DNA from: Brevibacillus brevis
Lineage (GTDB): Bacteria; Bacillota; Bacilli; Brevibacillales; Brevibacillaceae
DNA length: 64,000 nt
Reading direction: 5' to 3'
NCBI RefSeq assembly: GCF_900637055.1
Contig: NZ_LR134338.1
Location: 4,243,001 to 4,307,000, forward strand
Every line of letters begins with the position of its first letter. Position 1 is the stretch's first letter. The notes below the pieces were generated by a model that worked only from the letters and a program-made list of their open reading frames with translations, was not told the DNA's origin and did not search any database. A program made the translations under genes and the position numbers. Positions 12,124-16,770 of this stretch are shown piece after piece.

Positions 12124-13608
12124 TTATTTCGATTGTAAACGCTGTGCCTCTGCCCGATTTCCGACGTACCCAATTCGAAACTCGTCTGGGCTCATAGAAG
12201 GGACAAGCTGCTTATAGACATGGACAGGCCATGTAATTGCCTCTGCTTTTTCCCACGCCTCTATCATATCCAACAATCTTGGCGGCATGTCCACGAGAAC
12301 AGCCTCCACATCTTGGCTCTTTGCCAGTGCCGTGACTTCGGCGTACAAGCGCCGGAACAGCTCGTCTACTCGCCAAACTCTCCCTCGGCCCTTGCATGCC
12401 TCACACGGCTCCGTCAACCGCTCCATCAGGCTCGCACGAACTCTTTTTCGCGTCATCTCGACTAATCCGAGCGACGTCATCCCGAGAACAGTCGAAGGCA
12501 CAGGGTCCTTCGCCAGCTCTTGTTTCAATCGCGAGATCACTCGCTCCTTATTGCTCTGCTCTTTCATGTCGATGAAATCAATGATCACGATGCCACCGAT
12601 GTCTCGCAAGCGCAGCTGCCGGGCAATTTCAGTTGCCGCCTCCAGATTGGTCGCCGTCACTGCCTGCTCCCGCTGTTGCCCTCCCCCGCCTGTGAACGAA
12701 CCGGTATTTACATCGATGACCGTCATCGCTTCTGTCCTGTCGATGACCAAGGACCCTCCACTCTTGAGCGGCACTTGTCGATCACGAGCACGAATCAGCT
12801 CCGCCTCGACACCCAAGAAGTCAAAGAGCGGCTGTTTGCCCTGATACCAGCGAAGCTTCTCTTGTACTTCCGGAGCAAAAGCTGCCAACGCCTCTTTTAC
12901 CTGCTGATGAGTCGCCGCACCTTCTACCAACAGCTCATCCATTCCGTTTGCCAAACCATCTCGGAGCGCCACCTCGATCAACTCTGCATCCTGAAAAATC
13001 CGCCCGGTCGAGCGCAGTCCCTCCGCTGTTCGCAGCATATCCTGCCAGCGATTGCGCAAATAGGTCAGTTCACGAATGAGTGTCTGCTCTTCTGCTTCCG
13101 CCGCTTCCGTGCGCAGAATACAGCCTTCTCCTTGCGCTACTGTCGAAGAGATCACTTGTTGCAGTCGTTTTCGTTTGGTATCATCGGTTATTTTACGCGA
13201 AAGCGATATGCTTTCTTCAGTCGGAAGGTACACCAGGTAACGCCCCTGCAAGCTGATCCGCATCGAGATTTTTGGCGCCTTCATTTCCATTGCCTCTTTA
13301 GTCACTTGAACCAATACCTTTTGTCCTACGTGAACGCGTTCCGCAATACTTGGTTTCGCTGCTCCACCCGACTCTAAACCGACCGTGTCATCTACATACA
13401 AATAAGCATTTTGGCCTGTACCAATATCAACAAAGGCGGATTGGATGCCAGGCCTCACATCTGCGATCCGTCCTTGATAAATGTCACCAACACTTGCGTG
13501 TGCCCCTACATCCTGTGTACGCCATTCCTGCAATTTCCCGTTTTCTATAAATGCGATGCGGATGCTGCCACCTTGTGCACTGATCGCTACTTGCTTCACT
13601 GCCTTCAC
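12124..13608 (-). CDS. rng: Ribonuclease G/E family endoribonuclease
   Basis: Single-strand RNA endonuclease of the RNase E/G family. Length is 494 residues. An S1 domain occupies about 38-120. The catalytic Mg-binding aspartates are D299 (TVIDVNTGSF) and D344 (VIIDFIDM), and the Zn-link cysteines are C402 and C405 (CEACKGRGR). It is upstream of rplU, as in many Bacilli and Paenibacilli that have this gene. It starts at ATG 13608. Confidence 0.93.
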   Translation of the reverse strand: MKAVKQVAISAQGGSIRIAFIENGKLQEWRTQDVGAHASVGDIYQGRIADVRPGIQSAFVDIGTGQNAYLYVDDTVGLESGGAAKPSIAERVHVGQKVLVQVTKEAMEMKAPKISMRISLQGRYLVYLPTEESISLSRKITDDTKRKRLQQVISSTVAQGEGCILRTEAAEAEEQTLIRELTYLRNRWQDMLRTAEGLRSTGRIFQDAELIEVALRDGLANGMDELLVEGAATHQQVKEALAAFAPEVQEKLRWYQGKQPLFDFLGVEAELIRARDRQVPLKSGGSLVIDRTEAMTVIDVNTGSFTGGGGQQREQAVTATNLEAATEIARQLRLRDIGGIVIIDFIDMKEQSNKERVISRLKQELAKDPVPSTVLGMTSLGLVEMTRKRVRASLMERLTEPCEACKGRGRVWRVDELFRRLYAEVTALAKSQDVEAVLVDMPPRLLDMIEAWEKAEAITWPVHVYKQLVPSMSPDEFRIGYVGNRAEAQRLQSK

Positions 13609-13718
13609 TCCTTATTCCCCGTGCAAACGTTGCCCCAAAGAAGGATAACCGGGCTCATAGGAAGTAATCTAACATAGCTACCAAGTCAAGGTAAAGGAGA
13701 TAAACCATGATTCATGCT

Positions 13719-13723
13719 GGTGA
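13719..13723 (+). repeat. Target-site duplication GGTGA, left copy
   Basis: GGTGA occurs immediately before TGT at the left element end and again at 15403-15407 immediately after ACA at the right end. One copy restores the acetyltransferase frame. Confidence 0.88.
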
Positions 13724-13730
13724 TGTCCAA

Positions 13731-13810
13731 AGAAAATAAAGTATTAGACTGAAAAATAAAGTGTTAGACTCGGAAAATAGTTGAAGACTAAGAAAATAAA
13801 GTATTAGACT
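13731..13810 (+). repeat. Left-end array of four 20-bp transposase-site-like repeats
   Basis: Units start at 13731, 13751, 13771 and 13791, an exact 20-bp period. Units 1 and 4 are identical (AGAAAATAAAGTATTAGACT), unit 2 has three changes and unit 3 is degenerate. Confidence 0.9.
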
Positions 13811-14108
13811 TGCGGAAGCTTCATTAAGTTAACTGGCAGGTTAGCGTAATCATAGTGGCTAAAATAAGATGACCATTAAAATTAAAAGTAAAACCGCTGT
13901 CATTAATTCCATTTGTAGTTTGGAAAGCATAGCGGAAAGATTAAATCTGGAATAATTTGAAATAAGAGAACAACAGTATCGTTAAGCTAACGGGAAACGT
14001 TAGTTAAACGACAACAGCGGCAGTCTAAGACATCCGTCTCATGGCAGCGAGTGGGACGTGCTGTTGAGCACATCGTTTTTTTGAAGATAAGGAGAGGACG
14101 AGCGGAAC

Positions 14109-14987
14109 ATGAATGTGGAAGTGTATACGTTAAATGCGTTTTCGAAAGGGGAGCGTGGCGGTAATCCTGCAGGTGTTGTCTTAGAGGATGGCCTGTCGCT
14201 GGATGCTGCAGATATGCAGCTCATCGCGAAAGAATTGGGCCTTTCGGAGACGGCCTTTATGGAAAAATCCTTGCTTGCGGATTACAAAATCCGCTATTTC
14301 ACCCCCGCCAGCGAAGTTGATCTGTGCGGACACGCCACGATTGCTGCATTTGGACTCATGCATGCGCTGGGTTTGGCAAAGGAAGGGACCTTCTATACGA
14401 TAGAAACCAAGGCAGGGATTTTGGATGTCGATATTAGCTCCGAGGGTCTTGTTTATTTGTCACAGGCTTTACCAAAATTTCTTGAAAGGCTATCCTGTGA
14501 GGAAATAGCCCCATCCTTGGGAATGGATACCAAGGATCTGGAAACCGGGTTACCCATCCAAATTGTTTCGACGGGACTGCGGGACATTTTTATCCCGATC
14601 CGCAGCAGGAAGCTCTTGTATGAGGTTCAGCCCAATTTTGACGCTATAACCGCCATCAGCGAAAAATATGATGTGGTTGGATATCATCTGTTCACGATGG
14701 ATACTCCAGACGATGCTGCTGCGGAATGCCGGAATTTTGCGCCGCTGTACGATATTCCCGAGGAAAGCGCGACAGGAACATCCAACGGTGCCCTGCTCAG
14801 TTATTTGTACCAACATGGCCAACGATCTTTGCAGGAAGTGGAGCATGTCATGTTCAGGCAAGGGTATTCGATGGATTGTCCTTCTGAAATCAAGGCAAGT
14901 TTGCGCCTGAGCGAGAGCGGTGAAATCATCCAAGTTCGAGTTGGCGGTGCAGTGGCTGGCATTGAACAAAGACGTATCATGATATAA
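14109..14987 (+). CDS. PhzF family isomerase/epimerase-like protein
   Basis: The 292-residue protein has the two-lobed diaminopimelate-epimerase-like fold of the PhzF family. The N-terminal half carries GGNPAGVVL and the catalytic Glu in GLSETAFM (about residue 47). FTPASEVDLCGHAT follows at about 65-78. The C-terminal half has the anion-binding ATGTSNGAL motif near 220. PhzF acts in phenazine synthesis, but no phenazine genes are nearby and most Firmicute members have unknown substrates. The ribosome-binding site is weak (AAGGAGAGG, distant). It is the only gene inside the mini-transposon. Confidence 0.85.
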   Translation: MNVEVYTLNAFSKGERGGNPAGVVLEDGLSLDAADMQLIAKELGLSETAFMEKSLLADYKIRYFTPASEVDLCGHATIAAFGLMHALGLAKEGTFYTIETKAGILDVDISSEGLVYLSQALPKFLERLSCEEIAPSLGMDTKDLETGLPIQIVSTGLRDIFIPIRSRKLLYEVQPNFDAITAISEKYDVVGYHLFTMDTPDDAAAECRNFAPLYDIPEESATGTSNGALLSYLYQHGQRSLQEVEHVMFRQGYSMDCPSEIKASLRLSESGEIIQVRVGGAVAGIEQRRIMI

Positions 14988-14997
14988 GCGGAATTAA

Positions 14998-15041
14998 ATA
15001 GCCTGTTTGCAGCCACTATACTATAGGGGCAAATAGGCTAA
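14998..15041 (+). other. Stem-loop just after the phzF-like gene
   Basis: TAGCCTGTTTGC and GCAAATAGGCTA pair at 11 of 12 positions around an 18-base loop, directly downstream of the stop codon. No U tract follows, so this may be an RNA-stabilising hairpin rather than a terminator. Confidence 0.5.
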
Positions 15042-15245
15042 TTCTGCTAATGGCAAGGCAAGGATAGATAGCAGAGGATGTATGCGTGAGTAGACGGGTT
15101 AACCGTTTTTCGTCCAATCTGTCGTTTCCTTTGATTTTGATCGTTTTGCGTTCCTCGGGGCTAACGCAATGCTGGGTCGCTTGCGTTGAAGATCGTGAGC
15201 GACACATAGTTGCATTGAGATAACGGGTACGATAGCTCAATAAAC

Positions 15246-15296
15246 CAGGCCACTCTAACACTTTATTTTTGTGTTCTGACTGGCCTTTTTGTATGG
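15246..15296 (+). terminator. Terminator for the phzF-like cargo gene
   Basis: AGGCCA...AACAC pairs with GTGTT...TGGCCT and is followed by TTTTT. It lies inside the mobile element, so the cargo is a self-contained transcription unit. Confidence 0.75.
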
Positions 15297-15307
15297 AAGG
15301 ATTGAAT

Positions 15308-15402
15308 AGTCTAATATCTATTTTTCTAAAGTAAAGAGCTTTCTTAGACAGAAATAGCATCAAATCAACAACATCAGTCTAATACTTTATTTTCTCTGAA
15401 CA
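15308..15402 (-). repeat. Right-end transposase-site-like repeats
   Basis: On the minus strand, AGAAAATAAAGTATTAGACT lies at 15376-15395 and a variant AGAAAAATAGATATTAGACT at 15308-15327. The terminal inverted repeat ends at 15402. The spacing differs from the left end, so the ends are asymmetric, as in Tn7. Confidence 0.85.
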
Positions 15403-15933
15403 GGTGATCTAAAAATAAGAGCCTTATCCCCCAATGATACCACTCATTTAGTCAAATGGCTTTCTGACGAGCGCGTCTTGGCCTATTATGAAGGTCGTGA
15501 TCGGCCGCATGACGAGAAGCTCGTGCAGCAAAGCTTTTTCCCGGAAGACGATGGTGAAACTCGCTGCCTGATCTTGTACGCGGACAAACCGATTGGCTAT
15601 GCGCAATTTTATCCGCTCGATGCCCCGGAAAAACAACTGTATGGGTATGCAAAAGACGACGTCGTTTACGGCATGGACCAGTTCATCGGAGAGCCTGCTT
15701 ACTGGAATCGCGGTATCGGTACTCAGCTTGTTAAAGCCATCCTCCACTATCTTCACACGGAAAAACGAGCACAAAAAGTAGCGATTGACCCGCAAGCCTG
15801 GAATGAACGAGCCCTCCGTTGCTACGAAAAATGTGGCTTTCGAAAAGTAAAAGAGCTTCCTCTGCACGAATGGCACGAAGGAAGCATGCGTGATTGCTGG
15901 CTGATGGAATGGATCGCTCCTGCTGACTAAGGT

Positions 15934-16770
15934 CTAAAGGAGCCTGCCCACGGCGGCGTTGTGCTTTTGCTCAAAAAGAAGGGCATACAAAAGCTGTTCC
16001 TCTGCCAAGAGACCCGCCCCTTGCACGTAGAAAAGATGGGAGCATCCCCGCCGCAGCTTGTGCGAGACAGCCAGTACCGTTTCCTCGGGATGCACGCGTA
16101 TCGCTTGAACGGCAGCTTCTTCTTGCTGCCTGTCGTATTTTTCCACAAGAAAGCGAAAAAATTGATAAGGAAACCGTAAAAATGCCTGAATGTTCAACAC
16201 CAATAAATAAATCCCGATAACTGCTACGTTGTACTTCAACTCCAAGCTGGACATCCCCACCATGATCCCTGCAAACAGCGTACTCCCTGTCATCGATATC
16301 ATCGTCGCCTGCCTATATGACATAAACCAGCATAGAACGGCCAACAAGATTCTCCCGCCATCCAACGGCCAAATTGGCAACAGGTTAAACAGTGCAATCG
16401 TCAAATTGCTTACCAAGAAAAAGCGGGCCCACTCTTCTGTCCATATCCCCATAAACCAAAACAAGTACGAAGCAGCCATCATCACCATATTTAAGAAGGG
16501 CCCAGCGAGTGCCACGACAATCTCATCCATTGGGTCCGTGGCGTACGAGTCTTCCATCGTCGCTACTCCACCAAAAGGCAGAAGCTGCACTTCCTTTACG
16601 GTCCATCCGAGCTCACGCGCCATCGCTACATGCCCCAATTCATGGATCAGCACAATGACAAACAGCGTAATGACCTCCAAAAAATGGCCTGTCACCACGG
16701 ACAAGCCGATCACCGCCCAAAAAAGCAGGTGAATGCGAAACCGAATGTCGAGCCAGCCTCCCCTATTCAA
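15934..16770 (-). CDS. spoIVFB: Stage IV sporulation protein FB, intramembrane zinc protease
   Basis: Site-2-type protease that cleaves pro-SigK in the mother cell during sporulation. The zinc motif HELGH is at 43-47, and the third ligand D137 lies in NLLPIWPLDGGR; these positions match B. subtilis. Six or so hydrophobic segments cover 1-185. A cytosolic CBS-like C-terminal region follows (~190-278). Its start overlaps the end of spoIVFA by 8 bases. Length is 278 residues. Confidence 0.95.
   Translation of the reverse strand: MNRGGWLDIRFRIHLLFWAVIGLSVVTGHFLEVITLFVIVLIHELGHVAMARELGWTVKEVQLLPFGGVATMEDSYATDPMDEIVVALAGPFLNMVMMAASYLFWFMGIWTEEWARFFLVSNLTIALFNLLPIWPLDGGRILLAVLCWFMSYRQATMISMTGSTLFAGIMVGMSSLELKYNVAVIGIYLLVLNIQAFLRFPYQFFRFLVEKYDRQQEEAAVQAIRVHPEETVLAVSHKLRRGCSHLFYVQGAGLLAEEQLLYALLFEQKHNAAVGRLL

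Follow-up and report, generated by a model that had tools for sequence, protein, structure and literature searches.

A cargo-only Tn7-family transposon with a putative cassette slot in Brevibacillus brevis

The analysis was performed on 64,000 nt of Brevibacillus brevis NZ_LR134338.1 (the window; coordinates are window positions unless a fetched stretch is named), in which a GNAT acetyltransferase gene is interrupted by a short element carrying a phzF-family gene. On sequence grounds the element was firmly assigned as a non-autonomous, cargo-only Tn7-family transposon. The best explanation of the whole, which we regard as probable, is that such a transposon is combined with a cassette slot running from a motif termed B at one end to a motif termed A at the other. 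The genome of the window is designated G000; other G numbers denote the genomes compared, and L numbers the stretches fetched from genomes.

Insertion and Tn7-type ends

Insertion of the element was confirmed by comparison with uninterrupted loci. A search for the right flank covered 26 genomes of the genus and gave a match in 18, G000 itself counted. At seven of the 18 homologous loci besides its own (G012, G018, G013, G004, G005, G003 and G014) the acetyltransferase gene was uninterrupted, and the flank alignments overlapped by exactly 5 nt with a single GGTGA; both G019 loci were also uninterrupted, with one base of the 5-mer altered, and nine of the 18 loci were too diverged at the insertion point to be judged. 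A second phzF element (L073) was present at another locus of G012, with the target-site duplication (TSD) AAAAC, a phzF protein 98% identical and DNA 96.4% identical over 1,241 bp; its target site was uninterrupted in 7/7 other genomes examined. The third phzF copy (91%), in G013, stands last in a row that opens with the end of a GNAT-like gene and continues with a piece of spaced end containing motif A and a gene of ~320 codons. The GNAT-like gene, identified by eye, has a counterpart (98% identical over 98 aa) carried as cargo by a single mini-element of G019 (L124; TSD ACAGT).

The initial annotation had described TGT..ACA termini, ~28-bp inverted repeats and a GGTGA duplication, and all were recovered: the terminal arms comprise 29 nt and are 93% complementary by repeat search, and GGTGA is present on both sides. 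Two of its tests, the search for an empty site in relatives and the question whether the repeats are paired at 5-bp duplications, came out in favour of an element. Among 44 facing end pairs in G000 and its relatives, 19 (18 distinct) carried exact 5-bp TSDs, with ~0.04 expected, and three more had one mismatch. The view that these are coincidental intergenic repeats without transposition could draw on the solo and damaged ends that exist in G000, and is refuted by the exact 5-nt overlap at the empty sites of seven relatives, by the second empty site and by the 18 exact duplications.

The 20-bp TnsB-type sites were located by a position-weight scan. The four contiguous sites first described on the left were retained, one of them (~13771-13790) being degenerate, under the threshold of the scan and recognised by eye; on the right, three spaced sites were found in place of the two described. 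With up to one mismatch, the 17-nt site core occurred 16 times in G000 and 0 times when read backwards, and is therefore not due to chance. The tandem end is the equivalent of the tns-proximal end of Tn7, tandem sites adjoining tnsA in 17 ends. When 23 elements were oriented by tandem end, 12 of them had sites ~8, 76 and 131 from the terminus at the opposite end, six had some of these and five the outermost alone.

Full tns elements bounded by sites of the window type were found in relatives, as the initial annotation had proposed to look for, in G016 (Brevibacillus invocatus JCM 12215, from 100% identity of the Tns proteins) and in G048 (another family; L072, L080/L148 for the two). Both adjoin glmS-like open reading frames (ORFs), which from their sequence we take to be glmS. 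The G016 element encodes TnsA, TnsB (Mu-transpos_C), TnsC (AAA/TniB), TnsD/TniQ and TnsE, all by Pfam, and has the TSD AAAAT. The G048 element encodes TnsA, C, D and E by Pfam, has the TSD GGTTG, and carries TnsB in two pieces, 63-64% identical to G016 TnsB, with a stop inside the second piece. Because window-type sites bound full tns elements beside glmS, and because of the tandem and spaced layout, the ends were assigned to Tn7 proper; the TnsB kind of the ends first proposed was thus kept and their Tn5053 style was not. The element is like Tn7 and Tn6171, for which the accessible part of PMC8190619 gives four overlapping sites at the tns end and three separated sites at the opposite end, in its TGT..ACA ends, ~28-bp inverted repeats, 5-bp TSD, four tandem and three spaced TnsB-type sites (one per end degenerate or weak) and full relatives with tnsABCDE beside glmS. 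It is unlike them in having no tns gene and in bearing motif B, absent from the 17 tnsA ends examined, at its tandem end.

IS110-family elements were observed in the TAGACT core of TnsB-type sites, at L064:420 (= L268:2547), at L212:6231 with a reverse copy, and at ~2100-3700 in L072. The assignment was by PF01548 and PF02371 in L064 and L072, and solely by a matching end in L212; the L064 and L072 copies have a common right junction, AGGATAGACT. A further end in L072 (17889) lies at a TAGACT just outside the element. Perhaps an IS110 is involved here whose targets are Tn7-type ends.

Cargo-only elements and the motifs bounding their cargo

Two perfect tandem sites were found in 110 stretches from 84,980 species genomes, mainly of Paenibacillus, Cohnella and Brevibacillus. 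From 111 tandem ends, 41 were dropped for too little DNA inside, leaving 70 assessable: 17 with adjacent tnsA, 15 belonging to mini-elements (minis) with exact TSD, 18 with a facing end without exact TSD, and 20 with neither. With damaged ends counted, tandem ends more often lack tnsA than have it beside them (53 vs 17). Cargo-only Tn7-type elements are common in Brevibacillus and Paenibacillus, whereas the initial annotation had held a passenger element with a single enzyme to be unusual.

Later analyses used 37 minis, 33 with and four without exact TSD. Their longest ORF (at least 95 aa) ran from the tandem towards the spaced end in 28 and the opposite way in seven, with none in two. Scanning of ten cargo proteins gave an amidase, a glyoxalase, an EamA protein, an acetamidase, an aldo/keto reductase, a SnoaL-like, a VanZ-like, an MFS and a beta-lactamase-fold protein, and one without a match. 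The first forward ORF starts 150-390 nt from the end in 24/34 minis and tnsA matches start 208-241 nt from the array in 11/17 full ends. The cargo slot of the minis lies at the tnsA position of full elements.

By its passenger gene between cognate ends and its lack of a transposase, the window element works like a mobile insertion cassette (MIC). Known MICs and TIMEs are built on insertion-sequence (IS) or Tn3 ends. The part of PMC4133298 consulted describes, for MICs and TIMEs, transposon ends around a passenger gene, no transposase and mosaic elements, all of which are shared; unlike these, the window-type ends are Tn7-type, with several TnsB-type sites and an apparent cassette slot. Among the titles and abstract openings listed from an open-access library, none named cargo-only Tn7-like elements of this type or Paenibacillus cassette arrays, which is weak evidence of novelty, and the accessible parts of PMC10293859, PMC10969869 and PMC4909258 describe no matching system. 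According to part of PMC8649781, a large survey of Tn7-like cargo began from tns genes, so that elements without tns would have been missed there.

Two motifs bounding the cargo had been overlooked by the initial annotation. Motif B, ATTAAGCTAACGGGCAG, lies immediately inside the tandem array and is common to many minis, and motif A, a palindrome around CTAACGGG..CGWTAG, lies inside the spaced end. With up to two mismatches and within 60 nt of the array, B was found in 23/37 minis, 39/89 ends without tnsA (the two sets overlap), 0/17 tnsA ends and 30/4000 random 60-mers, the array-to-B distance peaking at 15-18 nt. The window element has B once and A twice, in its true spaced end and in a relic of a second one (Table 1). 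These counts bear on an alternative that we consider unlikely, namely that this is a plain decayed or deletion-derived Tn7-like element in which A and B are conserved end sequence and cargo varies by deletion and homologous recombination. Such an origin would fit ends and a site layout equal to those of full elements, the 14/37 minis without a good B, and the relic end, which suggests deletion and fusion; it is opposed by the recurrence of A and B away from TnsB-type sites and by the breaking of homology at the 11-bp core of B, both described below, and since B was in 0/17 tnsA ends and in 23/37 minis, the minis do not derive by mere deletion from the full elements observed.

The inner TnsB-type site was recognisable in 28/38 elements, and a hairpin with a T run surrounds it. 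By single-sequence z-scores the hairpin had z < -3 in 21/28 spaced ends and z > -2 in six, the full element L072 among those six; its arms vary among elements (AACAGCGGC..GCCGCTGTT vs CCAGGCC..GGCC) with pairing kept. The spaced end doubles as a predicted terminator. The terminator that had been ascribed to phzF itself belongs to the transposon end, and the assignment of phzF, the sole gene assigned inside the element, was upheld by PF02567 and TIGR00654.

Part of the relic end (13981-14029) is 95.6% identical to the spaced end of a Paenibacillus plasmid (L025 5372-5416). Together with the segment common to the other phzF element, which starts at 14029, it suggests that two elements fused in the window copy and that the slot of this copy was remodelled by their fusion. 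A terminator-like hairpin (GTGCT..AGCAC, then T7), seen by eye within 14029-14108, separates the point of fusion from the start of phzF and is a possible attenuator. An Rfam scan of 13000-16500 gave no match at E up to 0.1, and scans of L295, L301, L303 and L073 gave nothing but one T-box, in L303.

Table 1. Positions of the element and its parts in the window.
Feature	Position	Strand	Details
Cargo-only Tn7-type element	13724..15402	+	TGT..ACA ends, 1,679 bp
Target-site duplication GGTGA, left copy	13719..13723	+	single copy in 7 relatives
Target-site duplication GGTGA, right copy	15403..15407	+	single copy in 7 relatives
Tandem-end TnsB-type sites	13731..13810	+	13731-13750, 13751-13770, degenerate ~13771-13790, 13791-13810
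Motif B, putative cassette exchange point	13822..13845	+	core 13829-13839 = TTAACTGGCAG, 2 mismatches to CTAACGGGCAG
Relic of second spaced end	13981..14029	+	motif A palindrome (13981-14009) and start of inner TnsB-type site
Segment common with other G012 element	14029..15269	+	L073:1996-5262, TSD AAAAC, other locus; 96.4% identity
phzF-family isomerase gene	14109..14987	+	292 aa; PF02567 (E 3.8e-54), TIGR00654
Motif A of spaced end	15215..15240	+	palindrome TTGAG..CTCAA
Intrinsic-terminator hairpin and T run	15247..15290	+	encloses inner TnsB-type site; z -3.4
Spaced-end TnsB-type sites	15252..15395	-	15252-15271, 15308-15327 (weak), 15376-15395
GNAT acetyltransferase gene	13707..15930	+	interrupted in sixth codon by the element; right part 15403-15930

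Motif arrays, breakpoints and a candidate recombinase

Motifs A and B also recur far from TnsB-type sites, between genes, in the order A, hairpin, B, with B beginning 56-100 nt after A (43 units). In the Paenibacillus-group genomes G060-G065, counts of the B pattern were 111, 124, 45, 43, 9 and 6, against 0-2 in the reversed control. The arrays were surveyed in 55 regions, most of them chosen for B hits, with 223 B-like cores. Of the 36 regions with at least three B, 35 were one-stranded, and in 122 inter-B intervals of 250-2500 nt (median spacing 943 nt) the longest ORF was co-oriented in 108, opposite in 13 and absent in one. The middle of the A..B units folded with z < -3 in 48/73. Among the matches listed, the strand of B switches across a mid-chromosome point in G062 (+ at 2.75-2.83 Mb, mostly - at 3.26-3.31 Mb) and also in G060 and G063, as if it were ordered by replication direction.

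Breakpoints were sought in ~260 intervals centred on B, and pairs were required to keep a gap-free register. Twenty-three pairs were homologous downstream of B, and the upstream DNA was unrelated in 18; as a control, nine other offsets were taken, from 100 to 500 nt downstream and at 250 and 400 nt upstream, and there 0 of 43 pairs were broken. Five of the 23 pairs were not counted as broken: in two the upstream identity was 0.60 and 0.64, in two BLAST gave an upstream match, and one shared the Tn7-type end. In four of the 18 broken pairs one partner is a Tn7-type end and the other an array-type copy. Downstream homology sets in one or two bases past the B core and runs for 75 to 1,789 nt. Between PL91 (L167) and FJAT-28004 (L325), 329/330 nt are identical after B, with just TTAAG in common before it. 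The far border was examined in 13 of the 23 pairs. In six, homology stops no more than 25 nt from where the next A or B begins, in one copy or both. In two, the match reaches 17 nt into the following B in each copy, so that an entire cassette is present at two places. Others stop elsewhere, one at the edge of the fetched DNA. Exchange at the B core would produce such a pattern, and the cargo slot likely behaves as a cassette slot.

An explanation to which we give still less credence than to deletion treats the A-hairpin-B units as ordinary terminators or palindromes that happen to be repeated, with RecA recombination between repeats as the cause of the breaks. In its favour, the central hairpins resemble terminators and belong to a small number of similar families. 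Against it, in ten aligned pairs identity was 0.38 at 11-20 nt before B and ~0.3 further out, homology beginning at B; the two loci of a pair may come from different species and contexts, and sites and genes keep one strand.

One tyrosine recombinase family was found in B-bearing regions of G060, G061, G062, G063, G064 and Brevibacillus G018, the main matches being 63-94% identical to the L294 copy. The gene is open over at least 277 aa only in L294, L305, L325 and L340, and split or partial elsewhere; remnants include a fragment in a damaged G000 element (L116), a split copy after a Tn7-type end in P. jilunlii (L213), and those in L222 and L258. It was not found in the stretches fetched from G012, G016, G030 and G065. 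The protein is Xer-like (PF00589; NCBIfam XerD, 184.8 bits with a cut-off of 329.6; best PDB match 1a0p, XerD), and we infer a role for it in cassette exchange. Recombinases about 50% identical (51-53%) were observed on plasmids of Sporosarcina psychrophila (L350) and Peribacillus simplex (L349), the former followed by a divergent row of small genes; these are possibly related systems in other Bacillales.

Several observations weigh against a cassette slot loaded at B. With regard to the motifs, B was absent or poor in 14/37 minis including the other phzF element (L073), the B of the window carries two mismatches, and the A and B arms showed neither covariation beyond the shared consensus nor specific pairing. 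The phzF gene is not a clean B-gene-A cassette, B being absent from the DNA immediately before it. The B pattern occurs 1-6 times in the seven genomes counted from the family of the window, in G000 once (exact), and G000 has no array. The breakpoint pairs are few, share members and lie in many cases within one genome (G060), so that 18 broken pairs are not 18 events; several share just the first 75-216 nt, and the control offsets lie mostly inside cassettes. The recombinase gene is located within arrays and not at a constant platform position, and several genomes have only a broken or partial copy. The match between the glyoxalase cargo of G000 and that of Paenibacillus (below) begins only ~50 nt inside a poor B, and near-identical copies of a candidate element in G012 sit in a 2.4-kb repeat and so give no sign of jumping.

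Mobilisation and relation to known systems

The ORF list of the window element contains no TnsA, TnsB or TnsC, in keeping with the initial annotation and unlike an autonomous Tn7-family transposon. That annotation had further supposed mobilisation in trans by a full element elsewhere in the same genome, which was not borne out. With the TnsB of B. invocatus as query, 11/60 genomes were matched, weak matches counted, and G000 was not among them; TnsC was matched in 2/8 genomes and in none of the three phzF carriers, G000, G012 and G013. As G000 has no TnsB or TnsC match, the mobiliser must come from outside; the G000 assembly is one contig of 6.73 Mb, and an extra plasmid beyond that contig is possible. 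The single Mu-transpos_C protein of G000 was considered as a Tn7 transposase and rejected, being a Mu-like phage transposase (DDE_2, PF02914) with no 20-bp site within the surrounding 19 kb. This transposase, with DDE_2 and Mu-transpos_C domains, belongs to a Mu-like prophage at ~465-476 kb (L030); the AAA protein beside it presumably corresponds to MuB.

G000 holds one further mini-element with exact TSD (amidase cargo, TTTGG, L018) and several damaged or unpaired elements (EamA transporter, glyoxalase and others). Over 729 bp the glyoxalase cargo (L020:5233-5961) and DNA of Paenibacillus sp. PL91 (L323:6954-7682) show 97.4% identity, ends excluded, which suggests that this cargo moved recently between genera. 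The damaged Tn7-type element with the recombinase fragment lies at ~5300-8700 in L116 (G000 4170300-4173700), beside an ORF that we take to be a serine recombinase. Two copies of a 1,077-bp candidate element in G012 (3,834 kb and 5,155 kb) were entertained as a recent jump; this was dropped because the repeat that holds them (L131 6377-8787 and L132 6161-8571; 99.8% identical) spans 2,411 bp and exceeds the element.

In the preferred explanation, a non-autonomous transposon with a cassette slot, TnsA and TnsB of a full element, when present, would excise the mini-element, and TnsC with a target selector would insert it; without a full element the mini-element would be stranded. The slot would be bounded by motif B at the tandem end and by motif A at the spaced end, genes entering or leaving by site-specific recombination at the B core, in the same event as builds the Paenibacillus arrays. 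The Xer-like recombinase of the arrays is the candidate enzyme, and the spaced end would supply a terminator to the slot.

Class 1 integrons on Tn402-type elements are a parallel, and GTTRRRY is the attC core consensus. As integrons and CALIN are described in the accessible parts of PMC9024848 and PMC8618304, the arrays are like them in co-oriented single-gene cassettes, in sites of ~100 bp with two similar halves around a hairpin, and in apparent exchange at a short core. They are unlike integrons in that GTTRRRY fits the B core (bottom strand) in just 3/223 sites, that the array recombinase is Xer-like and far under the integron-integrase cut-off (TIGR02249, 83.2 bits vs 265), and that no fixed intI-attI platform was seen; no recombinase ORF was noted in the window element. 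The Paenibacillus arrays do share with integrons cassettes of one orientation with apparent exchange at a single conserved point, a feature absent from G000. Judged from their sequences, the arrays appear to work like an integron yet depart from one in integrase and attC core. Part of PMC9024848 reports a few CALIN, and integrons just occasionally, in Firmicutes.

On balance we lean, with some reserve, towards an independent cassette system shared by Paenibacillus and Brevibacillus, comprising the A-hairpin-B site, probably its own Xer-like recombinase, arrays of more than 100 sites in some Paenibacillus, and cargo-only Tn7-type elements with B as a loading dock, so that cassettes would leave the arrays and be spread by Tn7 machinery in trans. 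The sites offer a direct way to list the pool of mobile genes in Paenibacillus and Brevibacillus. A real cassette slot would mean that Gram-positive soil bacteria possess their own counterpart of mobile integrons.

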